A stretch of 64,000 nucleotides of DNA from [Eubacterium] hominis. Its GTDB lineage: Bacteria > Bacillota_I > Bacilli_A > Erysipelotrichales > Erysipelotrichaceae. Below are positions 7,768 to 60,148 of this stretch, one piece after another (within the stretch, counting starts at the first letter, position 1; each line of letters starts with the position of its first letter). The notes under the pieces were generated by a model that saw nothing but the letters and a program-made list of their open reading frames with translations, did not search any database and was not told the origin of the DNA. Made by a program: the position numbers and the translations under genes. Location of the stretch: contig CP060636.1 of assembly GCA_014337235.1 (NCBI GenBank), forward strand, positions 3,586,912 through 3,650,911, given 5' to 3'.

Positions 7768-7901
7768 AAACAAACCGCCTCTTTTCAAATTGATTTTACC
7801 ATACTTCTTTATGCCCTTACATTTATTTTTATTATTTTTTTAAATATACCCACAACGATTGTTTTTTATAGTATAATAGAAAAAATAAAGGAGGCGATCA
7901 T

Positions 7902-8579
7902 ATGCATTATGAAATCGTAGGTGGGCAGCTGCCCGTTGTCATCTGTAAAGTAGATGCAGGTGAAAAGATTTATACAGAATCCGGTGGTATGTGCTGGATG
8001 GATGATGGTTTTGAAATGGATAGTAATACAAGAGGAGGGCTTTTAAAAGGATTAGGTCGTGCAATGAGTGGCGAATCTATCTTTATGACGACATATACAA
8101 GTCCTCGTGATCATGCGGAAATCGCATTTGGTTCAAGTTTTCCTGGCAAAATCATTCCTTTGACATTACGTGAGCAAGAAAGCAAAATCGTACAAAAGAC
8201 TGCATTCCTTGCGGCTGAAGACAGTGTGCAGTTAAAAATGCATTTTCGTAAGAAACTTGGCGCAGGCTTTTTCGGTGGTGAAGGCTTTATCCTTCAAAGA
8301 GTCAGCGGACCTGGTACTGCATTCTTGGAAATCGATGGCGATATCGTAGAAAAAGAGCTTGCTCCTGGTGAAACAATCAAAGTAGATCAGGGATATATTG
8401 CGGCATTCGATGAAAGTGTCAGTTTTGATATCACAACCGTAAAAGGATTAAAAAATAAATTCTTAAGTGGAGAAGGTTTCTTTCTGGCAACATTAACCGG
8501 GCCTGGTAAAGTTTGGCTGCAGACCATGCCATTTTCCGTACTTGCTGATCGTATCATTGATATTGTTCCACACAAATAA
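7902..8579 (+). CDS. AIM24/TIGR00266 family protein
   Basis: A 225-residue beta-rich protein of the AIM24 (tryptophan RNA-binding-attenuator-like) family, whose role in bacteria is not established. Family features seen: GGMCWMDDGFEMDSNTRGG near residue 27, a repeated GEGFILQRVSGPG / GEGFFLATLTGPGKVW motif, and the end FSVLADRI. No signal peptide or membrane segment is present, so it is probably cytoplasmic. The ATG follows AAAGGAGGCGATCAT. A TATAAT at 7872-7877 may be the -10. It is a single-gene unit with its own terminator, divergent from the Gfo/Idh gene. Confidence 0.85.
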   Translation: MHYEIVGGQLPVVICKVDAGEKIYTESGGMCWMDDGFEMDSNTRGGLLKGLGRAMSGESIFMTTYTSPRDHAEIAFGSSFPGKIIPLTLREQESKIVQKTAFLAAEDSVQLKMHFRKKLGAGFFGGEGFILQRVSGPGTAFLEIDGDIVEKELAPGETIKVDQGYIAAFDESVSFDITTVKGLKNKFLSGEGFFLATLTGPGKVWLQTMPFSVLADRIIDIVPHK

Positions 8580-8612
8580 AAAATGCATGGCGTTTGTCCA
8601 TGCATTTTTTCT
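8579..8612 (+). terminator. Intrinsic terminator after the AIM24 gene
   Basis: Stem AAATGCATGG / CCATGCATTT with a 7-base loop and a T6 tail. The roughly 125 bases between here and the tRNA terminator hold nothing I can identify. Confidence 0.9.
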
Positions 8613-8737
8613 TATGATTTCAGCGTAATCCCACAATCTTCAAGTGAAATATTAATCTATTGAAATACATCTGTATGCTAAACATTGAAGTGAAAGATTT
8701 CTTCCTGCTTTTGGTTAAAACTCCAAAAAATTTGCAC

Positions 8738-8766
8738 AAAAAAAGCAACCCATCATCCAGGTCGCT
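8738..8766 (-). terminator. Terminator downstream of tRNA-Gly
   Basis: Minus-strand stem AGCGACC / GGGTTGCT (one G-U pair) followed by seven T residues, starting about 14 bases after the tRNA 3' end. Confidence 0.8.
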
Positions 8767-8779
8767 TATCTTTTCACAA

Positions 8780-8853
8780 TGGAGCGGATGATGGGAATCG
8801 AACCCACGTAGTCAGCTTGGAAGGCTGAAGTTCTACCATTGAACTACATCCGC
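8780..8853 (-). tRNA. tRNA-Gly (anticodon TCC)
   Basis: The minus strand folds as a standard 74-nt tRNA including an encoded CCA. The 7-bp acceptor stem is GCGGATG/CATCCGC, the D arm holds GTTCAATGGTAGAAC, the anticodon loop CTTCCAA gives TCC, and the T loop is TTCGATT. It is a single-gene unit with its own terminator, not part of a tRNA cluster. Confidence 0.97.
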
Positions 8854-8952
8854 ATTTCTTTGTGGCAATATAATACTATAAGATTTTTAGAATTTCAAGT
8901 CTTTTTTTAATTTTTTTTGAAATTTCATTACTTTTACAACATAAAACCTGAC

Positions 8953-8981
8953 TTGCCTATATCTAAAGAATGCGTTATAAT
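8953..8981 (+). promoter_or_regulatory. SigA-type promoter of the small exported protein gene
   Basis: TTGCCT (8953-8958), a 17-base spacer and a perfect TATAAT (8976-8981). The expected start point near 8988 lies downstream of the in-frame ATG at 8970, which rules that ATG out and supports translation from 9006. Confidence 0.75.
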
Positions 8982-9005
8982 TTCACATATGAAAAGAGTG
9001 ATGTT

Positions 9006-9293
9006 ATGAAGAAACATATCGCAGGTTGTTCATTGACTATTTGTTGCCTGCTGTTCATGATTATGATTATTATGGGAATGAATGGTAAAGCCTTATCCCC
9101 TAAACAAGCTGTCTTTGTATATCCTAAAGATACTGAAATATCAAAAGATGCACATACTTATTTAAAAGGTGTGATACGAAAAGATCATATAAAGCTTGAT
9201 CTATCCAAAGTTGATTCCCATACACCTGGTGTGTATCCTGCATATGCAAAGCAATCAAACAGAACATATGAATTTCAAATAGAAATCAAATAA
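9006..9293 (+). CDS. Small exported protein with Ig-like end, function unknown
   Basis: 95 residues. A short basic N-terminus and a hydrophobic segment (about residues 6-25, very rich in I, M, L and C) form a signal peptide or anchor. The remaining 68 residues look like one beta-sandwich repeat: KVDSHTPGVYPAYAKQSN resembles the closing strand pattern of bacterial Ig-like (DUF5011-type) domains (VDTSKPGTY-type). A single domain of this kind is usually part of a larger surface protein, so this may be a stand-alone secreted module. The start is set by the promoter position. The stop codon lies directly at a terminator stem that is now split by an insertion sequence. Confidence 0.6.
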   Translation: MKKHIAGCSLTICCLLFMIMIIMGMNGKALSPKQAVFVYPKDTEISKDAHTYLKGVIRKDHIKLDLSKVDSHTPGVYPAYAKQSNRTYEFQIEIK

Positions 9294-9342
9294 AGCTCCC
9301 AAAATGAAGTGAACCCAATTATTTGGACAAAAAGTAAATAAG

Positions 9343-10131
9343 TTAAATCAAGCTTACTAAGGATTGAGTTCTGTATTGCACAGGAGTTAATCCTTTTAAT
9401 TTTGTTGTGATCCTTTGTGTATTATAATACTGGATATATTCTTCCATGGCTATCTCTAATTCATCTAATGTTTTGAATTCATATTCATGTCCATAAAACA
9501 TTTCATTCTTCATTTTGCCAAAGAAGTTTTCCATAGGTGAGTTATCTAAACAGTTGCCTTTACGTGACATGGATTGAATAATTCCTTTCTCTTTAAGCAT
9601 TCTATGATAAGGCTCCATCTGGTATTGCCAGCCTTGGTCAGATTGAAAAATCAATCCATTAAGGTTTAGGTGCTTGTCGAATGCCTGATCAAGCATATTC
9701 TTCGTTTGATTAAAATTAGGACTTTTAGATATGCTGTAGGATATGATTTCACGGTTGTGTAAATCGATGATCGGTGATAGATACAGTTTACCTGATGCTA
9801 TATGAAATTCAGATACATCTGTTGACCACTTCTCATTACACCTTGTTGTTTCAAAATTTCTTTCATAATAAGTCTTATGGCTTTCTTCATCGATAACTTT
9901 TGTAAGCAGCTGATTTTTTACGGTACCGTCCATATCTCCTTTATAGGATTTGTATTTCGCTTTTGGTGTGATGCCATATAATCCCATCACAGACATCAGC
10001 CGTTTCACTTTTTTATGGTTGACTCTGAATCCTCTGTTTGCTAATTCTAACGTGATTCTGCGGTATCCATAGCGTCCTTTATGCGTATAGAAGATGCCTA
10101 TAATAGCGTTCATGACTTCATCGTTCTTCAT
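9343..10131 (-). CDS. IS3-family transposase OrfB (DDE integrase part)
   Basis: Catalytic half of the transposase. Seen: the HTH_21-like segment GRYGYRRITLELANRG; integrase core with first Asp in WSTDVSEF, second Asp in LIFQSDQGWQYQ, and Glu in LDNSPMENFFGKMKNE; and the end QRITTKLKGLTPVQYR typical of rve_3. The 263-codon frame has an ATG at 10131 but stays open upstream to about 10242, adding residues such as KVNGVYELQRKYPIRILLQ. OrfB is therefore expected mainly as an OrfAB fusion made by -1 frameshifting at the AAGAAAAAG just before the orfA stop. All three acidic residues are present, so it may be active. Confidence 0.93.
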   Translation of the reverse strand: MKNDEVMNAIIGIFYTHKGRYGYRRITLELANRGFRVNHKKVKRLMSVMGLYGITPKAKYKSYKGDMDGTVKNQLLTKVIDEESHKTYYERNFETTRCNEKWSTDVSEFHIASGKLYLSPIIDLHNREIISYSISKSPNFNQTKNMLDQAFDKHLNLNGLIFQSDQGWQYQMEPYHRMLKEKGIIQSMSRKGNCLDNSPMENFFGKMKNEMFYGHEYEFKTLDELEIAMEEYIQYYNTQRITTKLKGLTPVQYRTQSLVSLI

Positions 10132-10238
10132 ATCTTTATTAGTTTTAGAAAGAGTATAATAATATGTGCTTCTTTTCAGCCCTGAAATTTGTAGAAGAAT
10201 ACGAATAGGATATTTACGCTGTAATTCATAAACACCAT

Positions 10239-10757
10239 TTACTTTTTCTTCGGTTGTTGATTCTTCCTTGCCTGAACTACAGCTCTCAATTTTTTTAAGT
10301 ATTCATTCTCCGCTTCTAAATATAAATTTTTATCTTCGAGAAATTTAATCTTTTCCTCTGGTGCCATATCTTTATAATCTTTGTTCACAATGTTTTTCTT
10401 TGTCATAGTAGGAGATCTTCCTTTCTTCCTCTCTACTATAACACATCCATTCTCTTTATACGACTTAATCCAATTAATTAATGTACCATCTGAAGATAGC
10501 CCATACTCAATCGCAGTTGATTTAACAGAGTGATGTTGGAGTAAGACTCTGTTTATGATTTCTTCTTTAAGTGCTGGGGGATAATATTTGTTTTTGTCTT
10601 TTCTTAATATACTCTCCCCATGTTTATCAAGGAGTCTGATTAAATATTTTACATTTCCTATGAGAATTGCATATTCTTTGGATAATGAAGATATGCTCCT
10701 TCCTTGTTTTCTTTTCTCATAGATTTCTATTTTTTGTTCTTTCGTTAGTTTTGACAT
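10239..10757 (-). CDS. IS3-family transposase OrfA (helix-turn-helix)
   Basis: DNA-binding half of the transposase, 172 residues. It has two HTH regions (KQGRSISSLSKEYAI and HSVKSTAIEYGLSSDGTLINW) and a C-terminal leucine-rich coiled coil (EDKNLYLEAENEYLKKL) that usually mediates multimerisation. The ATG at 10757 is preferred over the ATG at 10775, because GGAGG lies between them. It ends QPKKK-stop at an A-rich run, AAGAAAAAGTAA, which is the probable frameshift site into orfB. Confidence 0.9.
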   Translation of the reverse strand: MSKLTKEQKIEIYEKRKQGRSISSLSKEYAILIGNVKYLIRLLDKHGESILRKDKNKYYPPALKEEIINRVLLQHHSVKSTAIEYGLSSDGTLINWIKSYKENGCVIVERKKGRSPTMTKKNIVNKDYKDMAPEEKIKFLEDKNLYLEAENEYLKKLRAVVQARKNQQPKKK

Positions 10758-10823
10758 AATAAAATGCACCTCCATATTTGGTTGTCCAAATTATGGGGTG
10801 CATTTCAAATCAGGGAGCTTTTC

Positions 10824-12535
10824 TTATCGAAGCATGGTCTTTGCGGCTTTCGCAAGTACCTTAGGATTTTTATGATGTGGTGTTACAGGACAAATCTTTT
10901 TATCAATATGTAGTAACGTATATACCGCAATTCGTGCAGCACGTACAGAATATTCTTCTGTAAATACCATATCCTCTGGTATTTCCACAAACTGTGAAAT
11001 CATCGCAAAATTAGTTGAACCAGATGGCACTACATGTGGGCGATCAGACATTGCACGTGGTTGGAATTGTGCATCAATATATGGCATCTACAAGGAATGA
11101 CATTCACAACATCCTCTAAGATATCTTTGGTATGCTCCTCAAAGTGTAAATGGCCTAACAGTTCTAATAAGATTTCTTCCCCTGTACAATCCCGCATTTT
11201 CTTTTTCACGTAATTGCCTTCTTGATCTGTGTATAATCCATATCCCCAGAAAATGGTTGTGTTTTGATCTTGAGCTTTGAAATGTGGCTGTGCAGCAACT
11301 ACAATACTCATCAGCCAGTTGCTGTCCTTAAATGTCATCAATGCACCACTGCCTGGAATATTGCCAGAAAATTGTTCAATCATTTTCAATAAGCGATTTC
11401 CCCTGCATGTCACTGTAAAGCTTTCCCAGTTTGTTTCTTCAGGCTTTGTAAAGAATGGGGCAGGATTACCTAGCGATGGCTTTTTATCTGCGACTTTTTT
11501 CCATAATGTTGCGGACATTGGATGATCTACTCGATAATCTGGAGCGTGGCGATAATCTCCAAGAGTTGCATTATCACTCATACAGCCATTACACATGATA
11601 CACAAATCGCCTTCTTCTAAATGAAGTACCCGTTCATGTCCGTTTTCTTTCACATAGATATCAGTAGCAGTTATACTTTCTTCTTCAAAATCAATATCTT
11701 CCACTACAGCTTTAATACTAAAATCTACACCATATCCTTCCAGATAGCTCTTTAATGGAAGGATCAGTGATTCATATTGATTGTATGGTGTACGTGTGAC
11801 ACCTTCTAATGTTTCGATTCTGGAGAATTCTAACATCATACGATTCATATACCGGCGGAATTCAAATAAAGAACTCCATTTTTGAAATGCAAAGGTTGTC
11901 TGCCACATATACCAGAAGTTTGTGGTAAAGAAATGTGGATCATCTTTAAACCAATCCTCAATGGTTAAATTATCCAGTTTTTCTTCTGGTGTCGCAAGCA
12001 GCTTCGTTAATAGAAAGCGGTCTTTATTATCAAATTGCATACTATGTACATCCAAGATATTTCCATGTTTATCGATTAAGCGTGCTTGTGCATGGGTAGG
12101 ATGTAAATGATCAAAATTCAGGATTTCTTCTGTGACACTTTTTCCCGGCCAGTCTAGTGATGGAATACTGTCAAACAATTCCCAGAAGTTTTCATAGGTT
12201 TCTTCATTCAGCATCCTTCCTCCACGACATACAAAGCCTTGTGTTACATTTCCTGCGCCATCATTACTGCCACCTAACACATCCAGACCTTCTATGATAT
12301 GGATATTTTCACCTAAAAAGCCTCCATCCTGTATCAGATAAACAGCAGCACTTAAAGCACCAATACCTCCACCAATTAAATATGCCTGTGGTTCTCCCTT
12401 TCTGCCAGGATGAACACGTGATGCTTCCTGTTCGATTTTCCTGCGATGTAAATGTCTTGCGACACCTGCGCCAGCTGCAGCTCCAATAATAACGCCACCC
12501 AGGGCAGCAAGTTTATGTAATTGATTTTTATTCAT
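10824..12535 (-). pseudogene. ohyA: Oleate hydratase (MCRA family), broken by a frameshift
   Basis: Oleate hydratase adds water to the cis-9 double bond of unsaturated fatty acids (10-hydroxystearate from oleate), an FAD-dependent detoxification common in gut bacteria. The first frame carries an N-terminal hydrophobic helix (KLAALGGVIIGAAAGAGVA), the FAD site YLIGGGIGALSAA, the GGRMLNEETYENFWEL region and most of the catalytic body up to DVVNVIPC. The last about 80 residues (PYIDAQFQPRAMSDRP to TMLR) lie in another frame. After TGT at 11090-11092 two bases, not three, precede the next in-frame codon ATG at 11085-11087, so one base is missing. Total length if repaired is about 571 residues, as expected. 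Start ATG 12535 follows AAGAAGGG; 12559 lacks a ribosome site. The loss removes part of the substrate and lid region, so function is doubtful. Confidence 0.93.
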
Positions 12536-51572: not shown

Positions 51573-53462
51573 TTATTTTATATCTTTCCAAATCATTTTC
51601 GCTTTCTTCTGATGATTTCCAATACCAATTTTTATCGCATCATCACCATAATGTTTATTTAAAATTTGTGCCATCGCTTTTTCCGCAGAAGCTAATAAAC
51701 TTTCTTCTGTTTCGCTTTCTGCATACTTCATTTCTATGACGATATCTCGCTGGCCTTTTTTTGATTTCAAATATATATCTGCTCTCCCATATCCCTTTTC
51801 TTGATTACTCATGATTTCATAGCTATCACTTACGATGATGCATAATCCCAACATCAAAACATGATAACTGTTTTCATCCTTTAAATCAAAATAGCTGGGA
51901 TAATTGAATAAAATTTCCTGATAGGCTTCTTCAAATTCTTTCATTTTTCCTTCTTGTATCATTTCAAACATCTCATATACATTACAATCATCTAATGAAA
52001 AAATTCTTTTTAAAATTTGTATTAAATCTTGTTTTACTTCTCCATTTACAATCCTTAATACATACTCATCAAAGCTTACCTTCGCTTTTATTGTAAGATA
52101 TCCTGCATGTACCAATAACGCCCATAACTGTGTAGCACCACGCAATTCTATGTAGGCTCCTTCCAAAATACAATTGACCTTCATTTCACCTTTTTCTAGT
52201 AATTCAATATATTGCTTTTTTACTTTATTACTTGATTTTTCTAGTAATTGACAAACAACCTCATTACTTCCAGTGTTAATCCAATAAGATGCTAAAACAC
52301 CTTTATCTGCATAATTTATTACAGACCATGGATTATAGATTTCGGTTCCTCCAATCGTATATCCATCATACATTTCTTTTACGTCCTGATTCAATTCAAG
52401 ATGATGTGCTTCTAATAACGTTCTTGTTTCATCTTCCGTAAATCCAAACACATCTTTATATTTTTCATCCTGTATACTGCATACTTCTAAATTGTTTAAT
52501 CCTGAAAACAAGTTTTCTTTCGCAATTCTTTGTATACCTGTTAATACGCCTTTATACAAATATTCATTATCTTTTAAAGCTGATGAAAGCATTCCAGTCA
52601 AAAGATCTTTTACATTTTCATAATACTTACCAGTCAATGCACTCATAAATGGTGTATCATATTCATCAATTAGGAATATAACATTTTTTTGATATTTTTT
52701 ACTCAAAAATTCTATTAATCTATTTAATGAATTCTTTATGAAAACTACATTACTAAAATTATTTCCTTTTTTCAATTCTTCATATGTTTGACATAATTTA
52801 TCTCTTAGTTCTTTTTCATCAAATGTTTTATAAATAGGATAATATTTTGCATACAAATCTTCCAAATGTTCAATCAAACTGCCGATCATGATATTTTCAT
52901 TACCTTTACAATCAAAAAAACTTAAGAAAATTACTGGCCACTTGTTCATTTCTTTGACATATTCTGTTTGATAGATATAGGTATCTTTAAATATTTCTTT
53001 GCTATCCTTTGTGATATCGAAAAATTCTGCCAACATACTCATATTTAGTGTTTTTCCAAATCTGCGTGGGCGTGTGATTAATGTTACTTGATCATTTAAT
53101 CGTAATAGTTCTTCAATCATTTTGGTTTTATCTACATAATAGGCGTTTTCTTTCTTAACCATTCGATAATTACTCATACCAATTGGCACATGCTTCTCTT
53201 TTGCATCATCCATATCATATAATACTTTTGATTCGTCAACACGTAAATCTTCAACGCCTTTTTCATACATTTCTATCTTTTCTCTGCCAATCGTTGCCTT
53301 ACACCCTATATTCGTTAATCGGATATCCATAACAAAAGGAATTCCTCGTCTCTTTAATTCTTCCTCTAAAGCCATCACTTCTTTTAATCCTTTAAGTTTT
53401 ACATTAATGATTTCATCATTACAACCTACGATTTTTTCTATTATTTCCTCTAAACTTCCCAT
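51573..53462 (-). CDS. AAA-ATPase-like / PD-(D/E)XK nuclease-like protein, copy 1
   Basis: 629 residues. Residues 1-95: small domain with EELKRRGIPFVMDIRLTN and GCKATIGREK. At about 110-430: AAA-ATPase_like (PF09820-type) core: VPIGMSNYRM...YYVDKTKM, P-loop RPRRFGKTLNM, Walker B NVIFLIDEYDTPFMS, sensor-like YKGVLTGIQRIAKEN. C-terminal PD-(D/E)XK-like domain (PF08011 type) with RADIYLKSKKGQRDIVIEMKY carrying the D...E-x-K set. Cytoplasmic. Families of this kind are widespread in anaerobes and lack a proven function; defence or element biology is suspected. The middle variable block is nearly identical to copy 4, the rest nearer copies 2 and 3. The ATG at 53462 follows GGTGG; the TTG at 53498 overlaps copy 2. 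Confidence 0.85.
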   Translation of the reverse strand: MGSLEEIIEKIVGCNDEIINVKLKGLKEVMALEEELKRRGIPFVMDIRLTNIGCKATIGREKIEMYEKGVEDLRVDESKVLYDMDDAKEKHVPIGMSNYRMVKKENAYYVDKTKMIEELLRLNDQVTLITRPRRFGKTLNMSMLAEFFDITKDSKEIFKDTYIYQTEYVKEMNKWPVIFLSFFDCKGNENIMIGSLIEHLEDLYAKYYPIYKTFDEKELRDKLCQTYEELKKGNNFSNVVFIKNSLNRLIEFLSKKYQKNVIFLIDEYDTPFMSALTGKYYENVKDLLTGMLSSALKDNEYLYKGVLTGIQRIAKENLFSGLNNLEVCSIQDEKYKDVFGFTEDETRTLLEAHHLELNQDVKEMYDGYTIGGTEIYNPWSVINYADKGVLASYWINTGSNEVVCQLLEKSSNKVKKQYIELLEKGEMKVNCILEGAYIELRGATQLWALLVHAGYLTIKAKVSFDEYVLRIVNGEVKQDLIQILKRIFSLDDCNVYEMFEMIQEGKMKEFEEAYQEILFNYPSYFDLKDENSYHVLMLGLCIIVSDSYEIMSNQEKGYGRADIYLKSKKGQRDIVIEMKYAESETEESLLASAEKAMAQILNKHYGDDAIKIGIGNHQKKAKMIWKDIK

Positions 53463-53485
53463 ATAACCACCAAGCTTTTCCTTTA

Positions 53486-55372
53486 TTATATTTTCCAAGC
53501 CATTTTCGCTTTTTTCTGATGATTTCCAATACCAATTTTTATCGCATCATCACCATAATGTTTATCTAAAATTTGTGTCATCGCTTTATCCGCAGAAGCC
53601 AATAAGCAGTCTTCTTTGTCATTTTCTGCATACTTCATTTCTATGACGATATCTCGCTGGCCTTTTTTTGATTTCAAATATATATCTGCTCTTCCATATC
53701 CCTTTTCTTGATTACTCATGATCTCATAGCTATCACTTACGATGATGCATAGTCCCAAAAGCAAAACATGATAGCTGTTTTCATCCTTTAAATCAAAATA
53801 GCTGGGATAATTGAATAAGATTTCCTGATAGGCTTCTTCAAATTCTTTCATTTTTCCTTCTTGTATTAATTGAAACATACCTGCCACATCAACTTCATCC
53901 CACGCATAGATACGCATCATGATATATATTAAATCTTGTTTTACTTCTCCATTCACAATTCTTAATACATATTGATGATACGTAATTTTTTCCTTTATCG
54001 TCAGATATCCTGCATGTACCAATAATGCCCATAATTGTGTAGCACCACGCAATTCTATGTAGGCTCCTTCCAAAATACAATTGACCTTCATTTCACCTTT
54101 TTCTAGTAATTCAATATATTGCTTTTTTACTTTATTACTTGATTTTTCTAGTAATTGACAAACTACCTCATTACTTCCTGTGTTGATCCAGTAAGATGCT
54201 AAGACACCTTTATCTGCATAATTTATTACAGACCATGGATTATAGATTTCTATTCCTCCAATCGTATATCCATCATACATTTCTTTTACGTCCTGATTCA
54301 ATTCAAGATGATGTGCCTCTAATAATGTCCTGGTTTCATCTTCCGTAAATCCAAACACATCTTTATATTTTTCATCTTGCATACTGCATACTTCTAAATT
54401 GTTTAATCCTGAAAACAAGTTTTCTTTCGCAATTCTTTGAATACCAGTTAATACTCCTTTATACAAATATTCGTTATCTTTTAAAGCTGATGAAAACATT
54501 CCTGTTAGAAGATCTTTTACTTGTTCAGAATATTTACCAGCATAAGCACTCATAAATGGCGTGTCATATTCATCTACCAAAAGAATTACTCGCTTTTCAT
54601 ACTTTTTATATAAAAAGCGCATCAAAAGTTCAATTGCATTAATCACAGTCACTTCACCATTTATACTAATATCCGCATCTAACAAAACATCACAAATTTC
54701 TAATAACTGATTTGAAAGAAATCTATCTTTTACGCTTTGAAATTCATCATAATATCTTCCATATTCTTTAGAAAGTTCCATATATAATTGCTTTATTAAT
54801 TTTTCTTTTTTTCCTTTACAATCTTTTAGTGTCATAAATATCACTGGCCATTGATTCATTTCTTTTACATACTTTGTATGATAAATATAGGTATTTTTAA
54901 ATAATTCTTTACTTTCCTTTGTGATATCAAAAAACTCTGCCAGCATACTCATATTTAATGTTTTTCCGAATCTGCGAGGTCTTGTGATTAATGTTACCTC
55001 ATCATTCAGCGTTAATAATTCTTCAATCATTTTGGTTTTATCAACACAATAAGCGTTCTCATTTATAACATCACGATAATTGCTTATACCAATTGGCACA
55101 CGCTTCTCTTTTAAAATTTCCGTTTCATATAATACCTTTGGTTCTTCAACATAAAAGTCTTGCATATTCTTCTCATAGATATCTAATTTTCTTCTGCTGA
55201 TTGTTGCTATACATCCTTCATTCGTTAATCTGATATCCATTACAAAAGGGATTCCTCGTTCATTTAAAGCTTTCTCCAATGTTACAGCATCCATTAGTCC
55301 TTTAAGATTTACAATAATGTTTTCATCTTTATTACTCAAAACCTTTTCTATAATTCCATCTGTACTTTCCAT
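53486..55372 (-). CDS. AAA-ATPase-like / PD-(D/E)XK nuclease-like protein, copy 2
   Basis: 628 residues, same three-part layout as copy 1. N-terminal DIRLTNEGCIATISRRKLD (like copy 3), P-loop RPRRFGKTLNM, Walker B RVILLVDEYDTPFMS, nuclease RADIYLKSKKGQRDIVIEMKY. Its central block (LYMELSKEYGRYYDEFQSVK, LLDADISINGEVTVINAIEL) is unlike any other copy. The segment RIYAWDEVDVAGMFQLIQEG is also private. Second in the transcription order 3-2-1. The ATG follows GGGTGGTTAT. No lesions. Confidence 0.85.
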   Translation of the reverse strand: MESTDGIIEKVLSNKDENIIVNLKGLMDAVTLEKALNERGIPFVMDIRLTNEGCIATISRRKLDIYEKNMQDFYVEEPKVLYETEILKEKRVPIGISNYRDVINENAYCVDKTKMIEELLTLNDEVTLITRPRRFGKTLNMSMLAEFFDITKESKELFKNTYIYHTKYVKEMNQWPVIFMTLKDCKGKKEKLIKQLYMELSKEYGRYYDEFQSVKDRFLSNQLLEICDVLLDADISINGEVTVINAIELLMRFLYKKYEKRVILLVDEYDTPFMSAYAGKYSEQVKDLLTGMFSSALKDNEYLYKGVLTGIQRIAKENLFSGLNNLEVCSMQDEKYKDVFGFTEDETRTLLEAHHLELNQDVKEMYDGYTIGGIEIYNPWSVINYADKGVLASYWINTGSNEVVCQLLEKSSNKVKKQYIELLEKGEMKVNCILEGAYIELRGATQLWALLVHAGYLTIKEKITYHQYVLRIVNGEVKQDLIYIMMRIYAWDEVDVAGMFQLIQEGKMKEFEEAYQEILFNYPSYFDLKDENSYHVLLLGLCIIVSDSYEIMSNQEKGYGRADIYLKSKKGQRDIVIEMKYAENDKEDCLLASADKAMTQILDKHYGDDAIKIGIGNHQKKAKMAWKI

Positions 55373-55388
55373 ATAACCACCCTCTCCA

Positions 55389-57275
55389 TCACATTTTCCA
55401 AGTTATTCTAGCTTTCTTCTGATGATTTCCAATACCAATTTTTATCGCATCATCACCATAATGTTTATCTAAAATTTGTGTCATCGCTTTATCCGCAGAA
55501 GCCAATAAGCAGTCTTCTTTGTCATTTTCTGCATACTTCATTTCTATGACGATATCTCGCTGGCCTTTTTTTGATTTCAAATATATATCTGCTCTTCCAT
55601 ATCCCTTTTCTTGATTACTCATGATTTCATAGCTATCACTTACGATAATACATAATCCCAACATTAAAACATGATAGCTGTTTTCATCCTTTAAATCAAA
55701 ATAGCTGGGATAATTGAATAAGATTTCCTGATAGGCTTCTTCAAATTCTTTGATTTTTCCTTCTTGTATCATTTCAAACATCTCATATACATTACAATCA
55801 TCTAATGAAAAAATTCTTTTTAAAATTTGTATTAAATCTTGTTTTACTTCTCCATTTACAATCCTTAATACATACTCATCAAAGCCTAACTTTGCTTTTA
55901 TCGTCAGATATCCTGCATGTACCAATAACGCCCATAACTATGTAGCACCATGCAATTCTACATAGGCTCCTTCCAAAATACAATTGACCTTTATTTCACC
56001 TTTTTCTAATAATTCTACATATTGCTTTTTTACTTTATTACTTGATTTTTCTAATAATTGACAAACAACCTCATTACTTCCAGTGTTGATCCAATAAGAT
56101 GCTAAAACACCTTTATCTGCATAATTCAAAACAGACCATGGATTATAGATTTCTATTCCTCCAATCGTATAGCCATCATACATTTCTTTTACATCCTGAT
56201 TCAATTCAAGATGATGTGCCTTTAATAATGTTCTTGTTTCATCTTCCGTAAATCCAAACACATCTTTATATTTTTCATCCTGTATACTGCATACTTCTAA
56301 ATTGTTTAAACCAGAAAAAAGATTTTCTTTCGCAATTCTTTGTATACCTGTTAATACGCCTTTATACAAATATTCGTTATCTTTTAAAGCTGATGAAAGC
56401 ATTCCAGTCAAAAGATCTTTTACTTGTTCGTAATACTTACCAGTCAAGGCACTCATGAATGGTGTATCGTATTCATCTAGTAATAAAATCACCTGTTTAT
56501 TATATTTCTCATATAAAAATCTTATTAATAAACTCAATGCTTCTTGCATTAAAAACAGTTCTTTATCCGATTCCACATTTCTTAATAATATATCATAAAC
56601 TCTTTCAATTCTTTTTTTAAATCCTATTGACTTTATATTATCAAATTCCAAGGAATATTTATCATATTCATAAAGCAAATTTCCAATCAAGCTCTCCATC
56701 ATAAAACCTTCATCGCCTTTACAATCAAAAAAGCTTAAGAAAATCACTGGCCACTTATTCATTTCTTTGACATATTTTGTTTGGTAGATATAGGTATCTT
56801 TAAATATTTCTTTGCTATCCTTTGTGATATCGAAAAATTCTGCCAACATACTCATATTTAGTGTTTTTCCAAATCTGCGTGGGCGTGTGATTAATGTTAC
56901 TTGATCATTTAATCGTAATAGTTCTTCAATCATTTTGGTTTTATCTACATAATAGGCGTTTTCTTTCTTAACCATTCGATAATTACTCATACCAATTGGC
57001 ACATGCTTCTCTTTTGCATCATCAATATCGTATAATACCTTTGGTTCTTCAACATGAAAGTCTTGCATATCCTTCTCATAGATATCCAATTTTCTTCTGC
57101 TGATTGTTACTTTACATCCTTCATTCGTTAATCTGATATCCATAACAAAAGAAATCCCTCGTTCATTTAAAGCATTCTCCAATGTTACAGCATCCATTAA
57201 TTCTTTAAGATTTACATAAATGACTTCATCTTCATGACGCAAAATTTTCTCTATAATTCCATCTATAAATCCCAT
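55389..57275 (-). pseudogene. AAA-ATPase-like / PD-(D/E)XK nuclease-like protein, copy 3 (in-frame TAG)
   Basis: Two frames in register: 55938-57275 (N-domain and ATPase) and 55389-55925 (nuclease part), parted by TAG at 55938-55940. The other copies read GATQLWALLVHAG here, so the lesion is CAG (Gln) to TAG. Without it the protein would be 628 residues. P-loop RPRRFGKTLNM, Walker B QVILLLDEYDTPFMS and ADIYLKSKK...EMKY are all intact. Residues up to EEPKVLY follow copy 2, then DIDDAKEKHVPIGMSNYRM follows copy 1, a visible recombination switch. First gene under promoter A. The truncated 445-residue ATPase could still be made without its nuclease. Confidence 0.88.
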
Positions 57276-57304
57276 ATGTCCACCCTACCTTTTCATTTAC
57301 TGCC

Positions 57305-57346
57305 ATTATAACATTACATAGTTTTTTGTCCATCACATTATAATGT
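57305..57346 (-). promoter_or_regulatory. Promoter cassette A with 12-bp palindrome
   Basis: Minus strand: perfect palindrome ACATTATAATGT (57335-57346), then TGGACA (57327-57332), 16 bases, TATAAT (57305-57310). An almost identical cassette precedes copy 4. The palindrome touching the -35 could be an operator or an activator site. Confidence 0.7.
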
Positions 57347-57361
57347 ATATTTATATCGTAT

Positions 57362-57394
57362 AAATAATAATAAGTGCTATTTAACAGCACTTAC
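57362..57394 (-). terminator. Terminator of copy 4
   Basis: TAAGTGCT-GTTAAAT-AGCACTTA then TTATTATTT on the minus strand. It separates copy 4 from the copy 3-2-1 unit. Confidence 0.85.
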
Positions 57395-57429
57395 ATTAAT
57401 TTATTACTATTCGCTTTCATCTAGATTTT

Positions 57430-59325
57430 CTATTTCCAAGCCATATCCATATGCTTTCCATGATATGCGATACCAACCTTAAATGCATCTGGTGCATATT
57501 CTTCTTCTATGATCTGTTTTAACGCTTTTTCTGCTTCTTTCTTTAAACTGTTTGTAGTATCTTTTTGATATGATTCACTTTTTAAATATTTCAGTTCTAT
57601 TATGATATCCTGCTTTTGTTTTCTTGACTTTAAGAAAATATCACATCTTCCTGTACCCGTTTCTTGATTACTATGTATTTCATACTCTTCATGAAGCTTA
57701 TCTAAAAGAAGCACTAATAATATGTGATGTGCTTTTTCATTATCCAGATCATAATAGCTGTATCGTTCCTTCAAGATTTCAGTATATAACTCTTTAAATC
57801 TTGGCATATCTTTACTTGTTAATGCCTGTAACATTTTATTGATTTTTTTCTCATCTACTTTTAAATGGCTTAACATCATTTTCGATAATGCTGCTCTTGT
57901 TTCTCCATTCACGATCCTTACGATATAATCGCCTTCTTGTATTTCTTCTATGATCGTAAGAAAACCTGCATTGATCAATAATGCCCACAGATAATTATCT
58001 GTTTCTTCTTCCTGATAATTACTTTCTAAATCACATATTACTTCTACACTTCCTGTTTCTATCAATTCTTGATAATCATCGAAAAAGGACTGTGATACTT
58101 GTTTCAAAGAATCTTTAATGATTTGATTTCCTCCTGTGTTCACCCAATACCGCTTTAATTTTCCACTAGATGCGTATTTTACAATAGACCATGGATTATA
58201 GATTTCTTTATTTCCAATACGATAACCATCATACATGCTTTTTACTTCTTCACTCAATTTCAAATGATGACTTTCCAATAAGGCACGTGTTTCTTCTTCT
58301 GTAAAGCCAAACATATCTGCATATTTATCTTCCTGCATCGTACATACTTCTAGATTATTCAAGTCTGAAAACAAACTCTCTTTTGCGATTCTTTGAATAC
58401 CTGTCAAAACTCCTTTATACAACATGGAATTATCTTTGAGTGTCTTTAACAATAAACCTCTTAATATATCTTTTACATGATCATAATATTTCCCTGCATA
58501 TGCACTCATAAATGGAGTATCATATTCATCGATTAAAAGGATGACTTTTTTTTGATACTCTTTATTCAAAAATTCTATTAATCTATTCAATGAATTCTTT
58601 ATGAATACTACATTACTAAAATTATTTCCTTTTTTCAATTCTTCATATGTTTGACATAATTTATCTCTTAGTTCTTTTTCATCAAATGTTTTATAAATAG
58701 GATAATATTTTGCATACAAATCTTCCAAATGTTCAATCAAACTGCCGATCATGATATTTTCATTACCTTTGCAATCAAAAAAACTTAAGAAAATCACTGG
58801 CCACTTATTCATTTCTTTGACATATTTTGTTCGGTAGATATAGGTATCTTTAAACAATTCCCTACTATCTTTTGTGATATCAAAGAACTCTGCCAACATG
58901 CTCATATTTAGTGTTTTTCCAAACCTACGTGGGCGTGTGATTAATGTTACCTGATCATTCAGCTGTAATAACTCTTCAATCATTTTAGTTTTATCTACAC
59001 AATAAGCATTTTCTTTTTTTATCTCACGATAGTCACTTATACCGATCGGTACCCGTTTTTCTTTTGATTTTTCAACGTGATAAATAGAATTTGCTTCTTC
59101 TACATGTAAATCTTTAACGTCTTTCTCATACATCACCCTCTTTTCTCTGCCAATCACTGCATTACATCCTGTATTCGTCAATCGGATATCCATAACAAAA
59201 GGAATTCCTCGTCTTTTTAATTCTTCCTCTAAAGCTACTGCTTCTTTTAATTCTTTAAAATTTACACGAATGTTTCCATTTTTACAACTCCCAATTTTTT
59301 TTATTATTTCCTCTAAACAATCCAT
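57430..59325 (-). CDS. AAA-ATPase-like / PD-(D/E)XK nuclease-like protein, copy 4
   Basis: 631 residues. It shares N-domain type with copy 1 (EELKRRGIPFVMDIRLTN) and an almost identical central block (EHLEDLYAKYYPIYKTFDE, KGNNFSNVVFIKNSLNRLIE). It diverges strongly after Walker B (KVILLIDEYDTPFMSAYAG): RGLLLKTLKDNSMLYKG, SHHLKLSEEVKSMYDGYRIG, and a nuclease domain with GTGRCDIFLKSRKQKQDIIIELKYLK. The D...E-x-K set is intact. Separate transcription unit with its own cassette B and terminator. The ATG at 59325 follows GGGTGGTTAT; upstream frame not supported. Looks like the older lineage into which copy 1 sequence was exchanged, or the reverse. Confidence 0.85.
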   Translation of the reverse strand: MDCLEEIIKKIGSCKNGNIRVNFKELKEAVALEEELKRRGIPFVMDIRLTNTGCNAVIGREKRVMYEKDVKDLHVEEANSIYHVEKSKEKRVPIGISDYREIKKENAYCVDKTKMIEELLQLNDQVTLITRPRRFGKTLNMSMLAEFFDITKDSRELFKDTYIYRTKYVKEMNKWPVIFLSFFDCKGNENIMIGSLIEHLEDLYAKYYPIYKTFDEKELRDKLCQTYEELKKGNNFSNVVFIKNSLNRLIEFLNKEYQKKVILLIDEYDTPFMSAYAGKYYDHVKDILRGLLLKTLKDNSMLYKGVLTGIQRIAKESLFSDLNNLEVCTMQEDKYADMFGFTEEETRALLESHHLKLSEEVKSMYDGYRIGNKEIYNPWSIVKYASSGKLKRYWVNTGGNQIIKDSLKQVSQSFFDDYQELIETGSVEVICDLESNYQEEETDNYLWALLINAGFLTIIEEIQEGDYIVRIVNGETRAALSKMMLSHLKVDEKKINKMLQALTSKDMPRFKELYTEILKERYSYYDLDNEKAHHILLVLLLDKLHEEYEIHSNQETGTGRCDIFLKSRKQKQDIIIELKYLKSESYQKDTTNSLKKEAEKALKQIIEEEYAPDAFKVGIAYHGKHMDMAWK

Positions 59326-59353
59326 ATAACCACCCTGCCTTTTCTTTATTGTC

Positions 59354-59395
59354 ATTATAACATTGTATAGTTTTTTGTCCATCACATTATAATGT
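59354..59395 (-). promoter_or_regulatory. Promoter cassette B with 12-bp palindrome
   Basis: Palindrome ACATTATAATGT (59384-59395), TGGACA (59376-59381), 16-base spacer, TATAAT (59354-59359). Matches cassette A from the palindrome through to the ribosome site with few changes. Confidence 0.7.
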
Positions 59396-59440
59396 ATATT
59401 TAGTTGTAAATATTCTATATACTGTATAAATCACATTATA

Positions 59441-59466
59441 AAAAGCAGGCGATTTGCCTGCTTATT
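59441..59466 (-). terminator. Terminator of the second pilus locus
   Basis: AAGCAGGC-AAATC-GCCTGCTT followed by TTTATAA on the minus strand, starting at the stop of the last gene. Confidence 0.9.
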
Positions 59467-60148
59467 TACGTACTTCTAATGTATTATAATCATCATGCTC
59501 CACAATGATAATTGAACATAGTAATTTCTGATTTCGATCATAGACTTCATATCCATTTTCTGCATGTATATTCTGATTTAATGGTTTTAAACTTATTTGA
59601 TTATAAAGAAAATCCGTATTCATTTCTCTCAATAAGTTCTTTAAATCTTCTTCATCTTTCGTCTTTCTCATGATATAGCGTGGTTCATCTAATTCTGGTG
59701 TTCCAAAAATATGTCCCATCATCCAGTTTCGCAGTGGATGTTCTTTTACCTGCAAGGCACTTTCTTCAAATGGTATTTCATAAAAGTCATCATGAAAGTG
59801 CGTGACTTTCATTTTTCCTGTCCACCCTGCCATATATTGTGCCGTACCATATTCTTTTAAACCTCTGCTTCGCATATCCAGATATCCAAAATAACTCAGA
59901 AATAGCCAGACAAGCACAATCGCAAACCATTTATCAAATTTTTGACGTGTGGATATATCTGGTTCTATAATTAACAACACATAAAATGGAAATAGAAATC
60001 CTATAAACAGCAATATCAATAGTGTTTCAATTGCCTGATGATAGATCAACTCAGATAATGCCATGAAGATATATACGATTCCACTGGAAATGGCAATGAC
60101 CCATTTCACAATGCTTTTTCGTATGGTTGTATCCTGATCTTGTTTCAT
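59462..60148 (-). CDS. Membrane protein of the pilus locus, unknown
   Basis: 228 residues with three N-terminal hydrophobic helices (WVIAISSGIVYIFMALSELI, TLLILLFIGFLFPFYVLLII, WFAIVLVWLFLSYFGYL) and a soluble C-terminal half containing FHDDFYEIPFEESALQV and DLKNLLREMNTDFLYNQIS. No family recognised. One base downstream of pilT and probably co-transcribed with pilB-pilT, so it may be a pilus accessory factor. It ends at the locus terminator. Confidence 0.65.
   Translation of the reverse strand: MKQDQDTTIRKSIVKWVIAISSGIVYIFMALSELIYHQAIETLLILLFIGFLFPFYVLLIIEPDISTRQKFDKWFAIVLVWLFLSYFGYLDMRSRGLKEYGTAQYMAGWTGKMKVTHFHDDFYEIPFEESALQVKEHPLRNWMMGHIFGTPELDEPRYIMRKTKDEEDLKNLLREMNTDFLYNQISLKPLNQNIHAENGYEVYDRNQKLLCSIIIVEHDDYNTLEVRK

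Follow-up and report, generated by a model that had tools for sequence, protein, structure and literature searches.

Four tandem genes of the DUF1703 family, read from the minus strand at positions 51573-59385 of a 64,000-nucleotide stretch of the [Eubacterium] hominis genome (contig CP060636.1; the whole stretch is hereafter the window), are mosaics of one another, and their divergence is concentrated in a single internal segment that we call block V. Each gene codes for an ATPase domain (PF09820) and a C-terminal PD-(D/E)XK nuclease domain (PF08011), and block V lies between the strand after the P-loop and the Walker B motif. The same position of divergence recurs elsewhere in the order and in two other phyla, such that a genome may hold nearly identical enzymes that carry different V. 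We give about an even chance (roughly 0.5) to the reading that these proteins are ATPase-nucleases resembling the signal transduction ATPases with numerous domains (STAND), in which the helices of V recognise a partner or target protein.

Mosaic structure of the four copies

Sliding identity among the four copies changes in blocks. Of 137 informative sites that divide the copies two against two, 75 group copy 1 with copy 4 (and 2 with 3), 47 group copy 1 with copy 3, and 15 group copy 1 with copy 2. These sites lie in long runs, because adjacent sites agree 104 times against an expectation of 57.9 +/- 5.2, a value reached in none of 20,000 shuffles; a test similar to the pairwise homoplasy index (PHI) was equally clear (0/1000 permutations). 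Block mosaicism in place of uniform divergence, as a first-pass annotation had proposed from the sequence alone, is thereby confirmed, and the site runs, the PHI-like test, the synonymous divergence (dS) of individual blocks and the shared tracts listed in Table 1 all support gene conversion within the set of four.

The blocks themselves largely follow that annotation. V has a dS of 0.09 between copies 1 and 4, where the N-terminal block reaches 0.32 and the six remaining blocks 0.86-1.82; the nearly identical central block attributed to this pair thus stands, and their N-domains, which had been placed in one type, do belong to it but are only moderately alike. Overall, copies 1 and 4 are only 64% identical, yet V is common to both, and the tract they share runs across the P-loop region into V, most of which it covers. 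Copies 2 and 3 have an N-domain in common (dS 0.17). Copy 3 becomes like copy 1 at the VLYD motif, where the switch had been seen, and the corresponding tract runs from there to the edge of V, with a dS of 0.09 around the P-loop. The RIFSLDDCNVYEMFEMIQEG block is likewise shared by copies 1 and 3 (dS 0.12), with copy 2 apart (1.0-1.7). A C-terminus common to copies 2 and 3, annotated over 60 residues, holds for the last ~48 columns (dS 0.09), and copy 1 is also close there (0.19-0.21). A search for donor segments outside the array in the 3.88 Mb single-contig genome returned a best DNA match of 80% over 119 bases, with 40 of 183 candidates scored. As no donor was found elsewhere, the exchange probably took place within the array.

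The variable block is bounded by fixed motifs, as the first-pass annotation had stated. In an alignment of 12 sequences the RPRRFGK P-loop and residues D267, E268 and D270 of the DEYD Walker B motif are invariant, and Y269 and the nuclease-motif residues D563, E578 and K580 (D...ExK) are present in at least 90%. V measures 46-75 residues in the subfamilies analysed and is nearly constant in length within each. Ratios of dN to dS across V types are uninterpretable: the alignment is uncertain, and dS approaches saturation.

Block V across the family

PF09820 has 25 matches in the window genome, fragments among them, in several subfamilies, and in the two that were inspected close proteins differ most in V. 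Of the 60 relatives searched, none is listed under the genus of the window genome. The comparison was extended to 60 stretches taken from five further genomes in the order, selected from match lists and mostly comprising long open frames; genomes G020, G072 and G077 were searched without stretches being fetched. Eighty open reading frames (ORFs) were kept, of which 77 fall into subfamilies SF1 (31), SF2 (20), SF3 (13) and SF4 (9) or the window array (4), and three are unplaced. Frames of fewer than 400 residues (380 in the Fusobacterium and Persicobacter set below) or without a recognisable P-loop were excluded, copy 3 entered with its N-terminal piece only, and a pair was called close when its flanks, outside V, were at least 0.8 identical.

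In close pairs from the same genome, mean V identity is 0.52 in SF1 (14 pairs), 0.65 in SF2 (15) and 0.71 in SF3 (6). The array gives 0.51 (3 pairs), and the remaining blocks of these four sets range over 0.67-0.97. In 33 of 39 same-genome pairs the 30-codon window of lowest identity lies inside V, for a uniform share of 0.13. Two later genomes (40 ORFs) served as a test, and V was lowest in 3 of 5 pairs with flanks of at least 0.8 and in 9 of 16 with flanks of 0.7-0.8 (uniform share 0.14). When all sets are pooled, a drop in V of at least 0.15 relative to close flanks is seen in 40 of 50 same-genome pairs versus 8 of 18 between-genome pairs. With flanks of at least 0.85 the drop is found in 21 of 27 versus 1 of 8 (Fisher p 0.0017; the pairs are not independent, and the 11 from the later genomes and from Fusobacterium and Persicobacter are all same-genome). 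One pair, at locus L091 of genome G045, is 0.96 identical on both sides of V and still differs within it. Conversely, V is common to differing frameworks in copies 1 and 4, in L067 and L075, and in L128 and L131 of genome G054; other same-genome pairs share V while their D or N blocks differ, and V and block D assort independently. A second block, at +56 to +110 from Walker B, occurs in two types in G054 (L128-L131) and in SF2 of the window genome (G000), with identities of 0.65-0.68 versus at least 0.95, and these types also assort independently of V.

The pattern is sharper in two records from other phyla, both labelled complete, namely Fusobacterium vincentii (Fusobacteriota) and Persicobacter sp. 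JZB09 (Bacteroidota), where the junctions fall at the edges of V. The F. vincentii copies L223 and L225 are 0.95-0.99 identical in the N block and from Walker B onward, 0.89 in the P-loop block and 0.69 in V. Persicobacter has three copies inside 11 kb. Two of them (L226 and L228) are identical from Walker B to the end and 0.96-0.98 before V, ~99% outside V altogether, with V at 0.52; another pairing (L224 and L226) has identical N and P-loop blocks, V at 0.62 and divergent sequence afterwards. Two of the three copies in Persicobacter are separated by ORFs that resemble transposases (L216, ~7888-11018), as judged from our own reading rather than a family search.

Is V then a hypervariable region? 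The first-pass annotation had suggested that conversion varies a recognition region under a constant enzyme. This finds no support in the pooled pN/pS, which is 0.32-0.33 in V and 0.25-0.27 in the flanks (43 of 769 SF1-SF4 pairs, those with V at least 0.7 identical), nor in the conversion event between copies 1 and 4, which lowered the diversity of V. Hypermutation of V is unsupported for the same reason of a pN/pS near that of the flanks, and given the nearly constant V length in each subfamily. Among pairs whose V aligns well, V is under purifying selection, so that it has more the look of a module that is preserved and can be exchanged than of one that hypermutates. In SF1 the nearest neighbour of V is in the same genome for 5 of 31 proteins (random 0.22), that is, V does not cluster by genome, as against 11-21 of 31 for other blocks; SF3 shows the same tendency (3 of 13 versus 5-7 of 11-13). 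The simplest account is that conversion homogenises the frameworks, that distinct V types persist, and that V occasionally passes from one framework to another. Since nearly identical copies usually differ in V, these comparisons suggest selection for V diversity.

Possible roles of block V

How might V contribute to the activity of these proteins? V is predicted to form three helices, which in the model of copy 2 span residues 189-206, 217-231 and 239-258. We envision that the PF09820 domain, as a STAND- or AAA+-like ATPase, probably switches on the C-terminal nuclease, and that V would most likely be a protein-recognition surface setting the trigger or target of each copy. Homologous recombination between copies, for which the conserved segments at the P-loop and Walker B are the probable anchors, would homogenise or reshuffle the framework (the N block, ATPase flanks, D block and C-terminal blocks) while mostly keeping V types apart, and the outcome would be one genome with nearly identical enzymes carrying different V.

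Alternatively, V might contact DNA, as the initiator-specific motif does in ORC/Cdc6 and IstB, and so set the DNA target of the nuclease. V follows the second strand of the ATPase core, which we take to be the position where initiator-type AAA+ proteins carry their DNA-contacting helices. Such contacts are documented in the available text of two reports (PMC7450096, PMC11208146), and the structural matches include ORC/Cdc6 and TnsC. A Foldseek search with the copy 2 model returned weak AAA+ matches. The charge of V speaks against DNA binding, being neutral to acidic (-4.6 per 100 residues, sd 5.8, in 79 proteins), and we regard this alternative as very improbable.

The same charge would suit a protein interface, and the interface need not face an outside ligand. 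V might instead mediate self-assembly, so that different V types keep paralogues homo-oligomeric and insulated from each other. The number of PF09820 matches in the window genome, the fact that V differs most between copies of one genome, and a structural likeness to STAND proteins, which oligomerise, are all in keeping with this idea. Copies 1 and 4, however, have the same V at 64% identity, and further same-genome pairs have one V with different D or N blocks; all of these could cross-assemble. On balance, we consider self-assembly as the role of V rather unlikely.

Several results weigh against protein recognition by a V whose diversity is selected. The structure models are of moderate quality (predicted local distance difference test 74-75, predicted template modelling score 0.57-0.63). 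The sole close same-genome pair in SF4 shows no drop in V (0.75, with another block lower at 0.65), and V lies within 0.05 of the flanks or above them in 6 of 50 same-genome pairs (8 of 18 between genomes). V identity in between-genome close pairs is 0.77 in SF1 (7 pairs), 0.69 in SF2 (5) and 0.73 in SF3 (6), and its contrast with same-genome pairs is significant in SF1 only (p 0.0037; SF2 0.17, SF3 0.29). In SF2, V clusters by genome like the other blocks (13 of 20 versus 12-15 of 19-20). The evidence for purifying selection is limited by construction to pairs with V at least 0.7 identical, and the conversion between copies 1 and 4 reduced the diversity of V. Finally, V also contains the lowest 30-codon window in half of the between-genome pairs (9 of 18), which makes ordinary fast divergence responsible for part of the signal.

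The last point and the weak contrasts in SF2 and SF3 would also be expected if V were a loosely constrained helical region that diverges fast, acts as a heterology block halting conversion tracts, and carries no functional meaning. Such a region should not, however, show purifying selection near that of its flanks where it can be aligned, nor a nearly fixed length in each subfamily; it leaves the Persicobacter (0.99) and G045 (0.96) pairs, near-identical on both sides of a different V, poorly accounted for, and V itself has moved between frameworks in copies 1 and 4. We therefore hold loose constraint to be unlikely.

For the biological role, defence against phages or plasmids and competition between cells are conjectural candidates. 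The first-pass annotation had expected a defence or antigen-like array. Direct support is lacking: PADLOC-DB models gave no match for copies 1, 2 and 4 at E 1, no donor segments were found, and a crude test on the neighbours of other paralogues showed no enrichment of defence models. In that test, 94 neighbour ORFs matched 55 models and 85 control ORFs matched 235, where the counts are of models, not genes, and a Septu-like gene set among the controls inflates their figure. The ORFs scanned (94 of 165 neighbour, 85 of 185 control, at least 150 residues) were hand-picked as more central, the 13 control stretches were placed at round coordinates, and the scan covered neighbours of paralogues other than those of the window array. 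Neighbours gave single-protein matches to the helicase models ZorD, DpdE and DrmD.

The distribution of the family is patchy, with members in 50 of 208 genomes of the order and in 13 of 295 of an even phylum sample (the window genome is in both). Relatives of copy 2, at less than 60% identity, occur among phages (34 of 50,697 records) and plasmids (56 of 72,556). Viral contigs yielded none with copy 1 as the lone query, and 10 loci with alignment A1, three of which look like one locus; the seven longest are 33-37% identical. A draft genome of the same family as the window genome (G109, 10% contamination listed) has 86 PF09820 matches, fragments included, an unusually large expansion. In another draft, G077, many matches break off at a contig end near profile position 50-70, as though the assembly forked once past the shared P-loop segment but short of V. 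Patchiness, expansion and diversity of repertoire fit conflict systems.

The array, its surroundings and known relatives

All four copies contain both domains above the Pfam cut-offs, as annotated (PF09820 138.6-143.5 bits, cut-off 26.1; PF08011 42.5-50.5, cut-off 25.5), with the correction that only copies 1, 2 and 4 are intact. An in-frame TAG (55938-55940) breaks copy 3, whose domains are split over two separate ORF pieces. Copy 1 probably starts at the ATG at 53462, ahead of which lies a GGTGGTTAT stretch that is the same in copies 2 and 4, and copy 4 probably at the ATG at 59325. Other copies in the window genome are split or shortened as well: L066 (G000:C1:283000-297000) consists of overlapping frames of 402 and 211 residues, L075 has 429 residues, and L076 has an open frame of 418, so that copies decay as well as multiply.

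Table 1. Features of the DUF1703 array (window positions)
Feature	Position	Strand	Basis or detail
Copy 1, PF09820 ATPase and PF08011 nuclease	51573..53498	-	ORF and Pfam
Copy 2, PF09820 and PF08011, intact, V type of its own	53486..55372	-	ORF and Pfam
Copy 3, same architecture, two ORFs of 445 and 178 aa	55389..57275	-	ORF and Pfam
Copy 4, most divergent framework (54-64% aa versus others), V same as copy 1	57430..59385	-	ORF and Pfam
V of copy 1, residues 198-271, near-identical to V of copy 4	52686..52907	-	
V of copy 2, residues 186-260	54593..54817	-	
V of copy 3, third V type	56496..56720	-	
V of copy 4, residues 206-279	58549..58770	-	
Tract shared by copies 1 and 4, copy 1 side	52703..53096	-	400 columns, 94.8%; partner 58566-58959
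Tract shared by copies 1 and 3, copy 1 side	52903..53225	-	323 columns, 97.8%; partner 56716-57038
Promoter-like TGGACA-16-TATAAT upstream of copy 3	57305..57332	-	motif scoring
Promoter-like site upstream of probable copy 4 start, score equal to copy 3 site	59354-59381	-	motif scoring
Terminator-like hairpin between copies 4 and 3	57370..57394	-	

The promoter-like sites before copies 4 and 3, with the hairpin between them, suggest two transcription units, copy 4 and copies 3-2-1; the total of such sites (49) is not above that in shuffled sequence (54.1). A stretch of 58 bases (~59342-59399), which takes in the 5' end of the copy 4 ORF and sequence upstream of it, recurs with 81% identity at L063 and L064, two distant places in the genome, and is perhaps a shared promoter or a small repeat. 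GC content is 0.301 in the array versus 0.349 in the whole window and 0.36-0.37 on both sides. To judge from our own reading of the ORFs rather than a family search, the array is probably flanked by phenylalanyl-tRNA synthetase genes and an aminotransferase gene at one end and, past a 228-residue ORF (59462-60148) that has no Pfam or PHROGs match, by genes for type IV pilus ATPases at the other. The five ORFs scanned have no NCBIfam match, copies 1, 2 and 4 no PHROGs match, and a PDB sequence search gave no usable match; the closest named relatives of copy 2 are from Blautia and [Ruminococcus] faecis (41-42%).

The family, its architecture and recombination among paralogues were already known. 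The domains (PF09820 AAA-ATPase_like and PF08011 PDDEXK_9) and motifs were described by Knizewski et al. 2007 (PMC1913061), and the window copies, which share both domains as well as the RPRRFGK variant of the P-loop and the DEYD Walker B, are full members; the exchange block seen here is absent from the available text of that description. In the Cardinium strain cCpun and a midge Rickettsia, 25 DUF1703 paralogues, of unknown function, show reticulate evolution and intragenic recombination by RDP4 and PHI (PMC6387759); the part of the text available gives no breakpoint positions, whereas here divergence is localised to V and traced in other lineages. We found no paper describing an exchange block at V in a search that left subscription papers and most preprints outside, and the accessible parts of PMC12445526, PMC7159879 and PMC12039267 held nothing bearing on it. 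Relative to the literature found, three points are new: that the exchange block keeps to one position, that it does so in distant lineages too, and that a homogenised framework contrasts with a preserved V.

Several known systems invite comparison. Rpn nucleases, also PD-(D/E)XK enzymes, combine a constant catalytic part with a highly variable one, for which phages are the suspected driver; there, according to the text available, the variable part is the C-terminal domain, doubles as an intragenic antitoxin and varies in repeat number (PMC10327210), whereas here the block is internal, inside the ATPase core, and tied to recombination. STAND and nucleotide-binding leucine-rich-repeat ATPases (Avs3-5, CED-4, Apaf-1, plant resistosomes) differ in that here the variable part is within the ATPase and no Pfam repeat sensor (tetratricopeptide, leucine-rich or WD) was found, only PF09820 and PF08011 at E 0.001, a level at which fainter repeats are possible. 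PF09820 is listed, in the part of the source available, among the domains of RdrA of RADAR, PARIS1 and Old-tin (PMC10952713), with which the array has this domain in common, although copies 1, 2 and 4 match no PADLOC model. Antigenic arrays with one expressed gene and silent partial donors are unlike this one, which has three intact copies of four and, among the candidates scored, no donors outside.

Some bacteria carry dozens of DUF1703 copies, and their function is not established in the literature consulted. The recurrent position of divergence in a homogenised enzyme shows experimenters where to look, and the Persicobacter copies L226 and L228 are a natural near-isogenic pair that offers a clean test of V. 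Tentatively, and with more doubt than confidence, DUF1703 may represent a widespread family of STAND-like nucleases that forms a modular system of innate recognition, in which gene conversion maintains and reassorts repertoires of nearly identical enzymes, each with an exchangeable helical specificity module inside the ATPase core.

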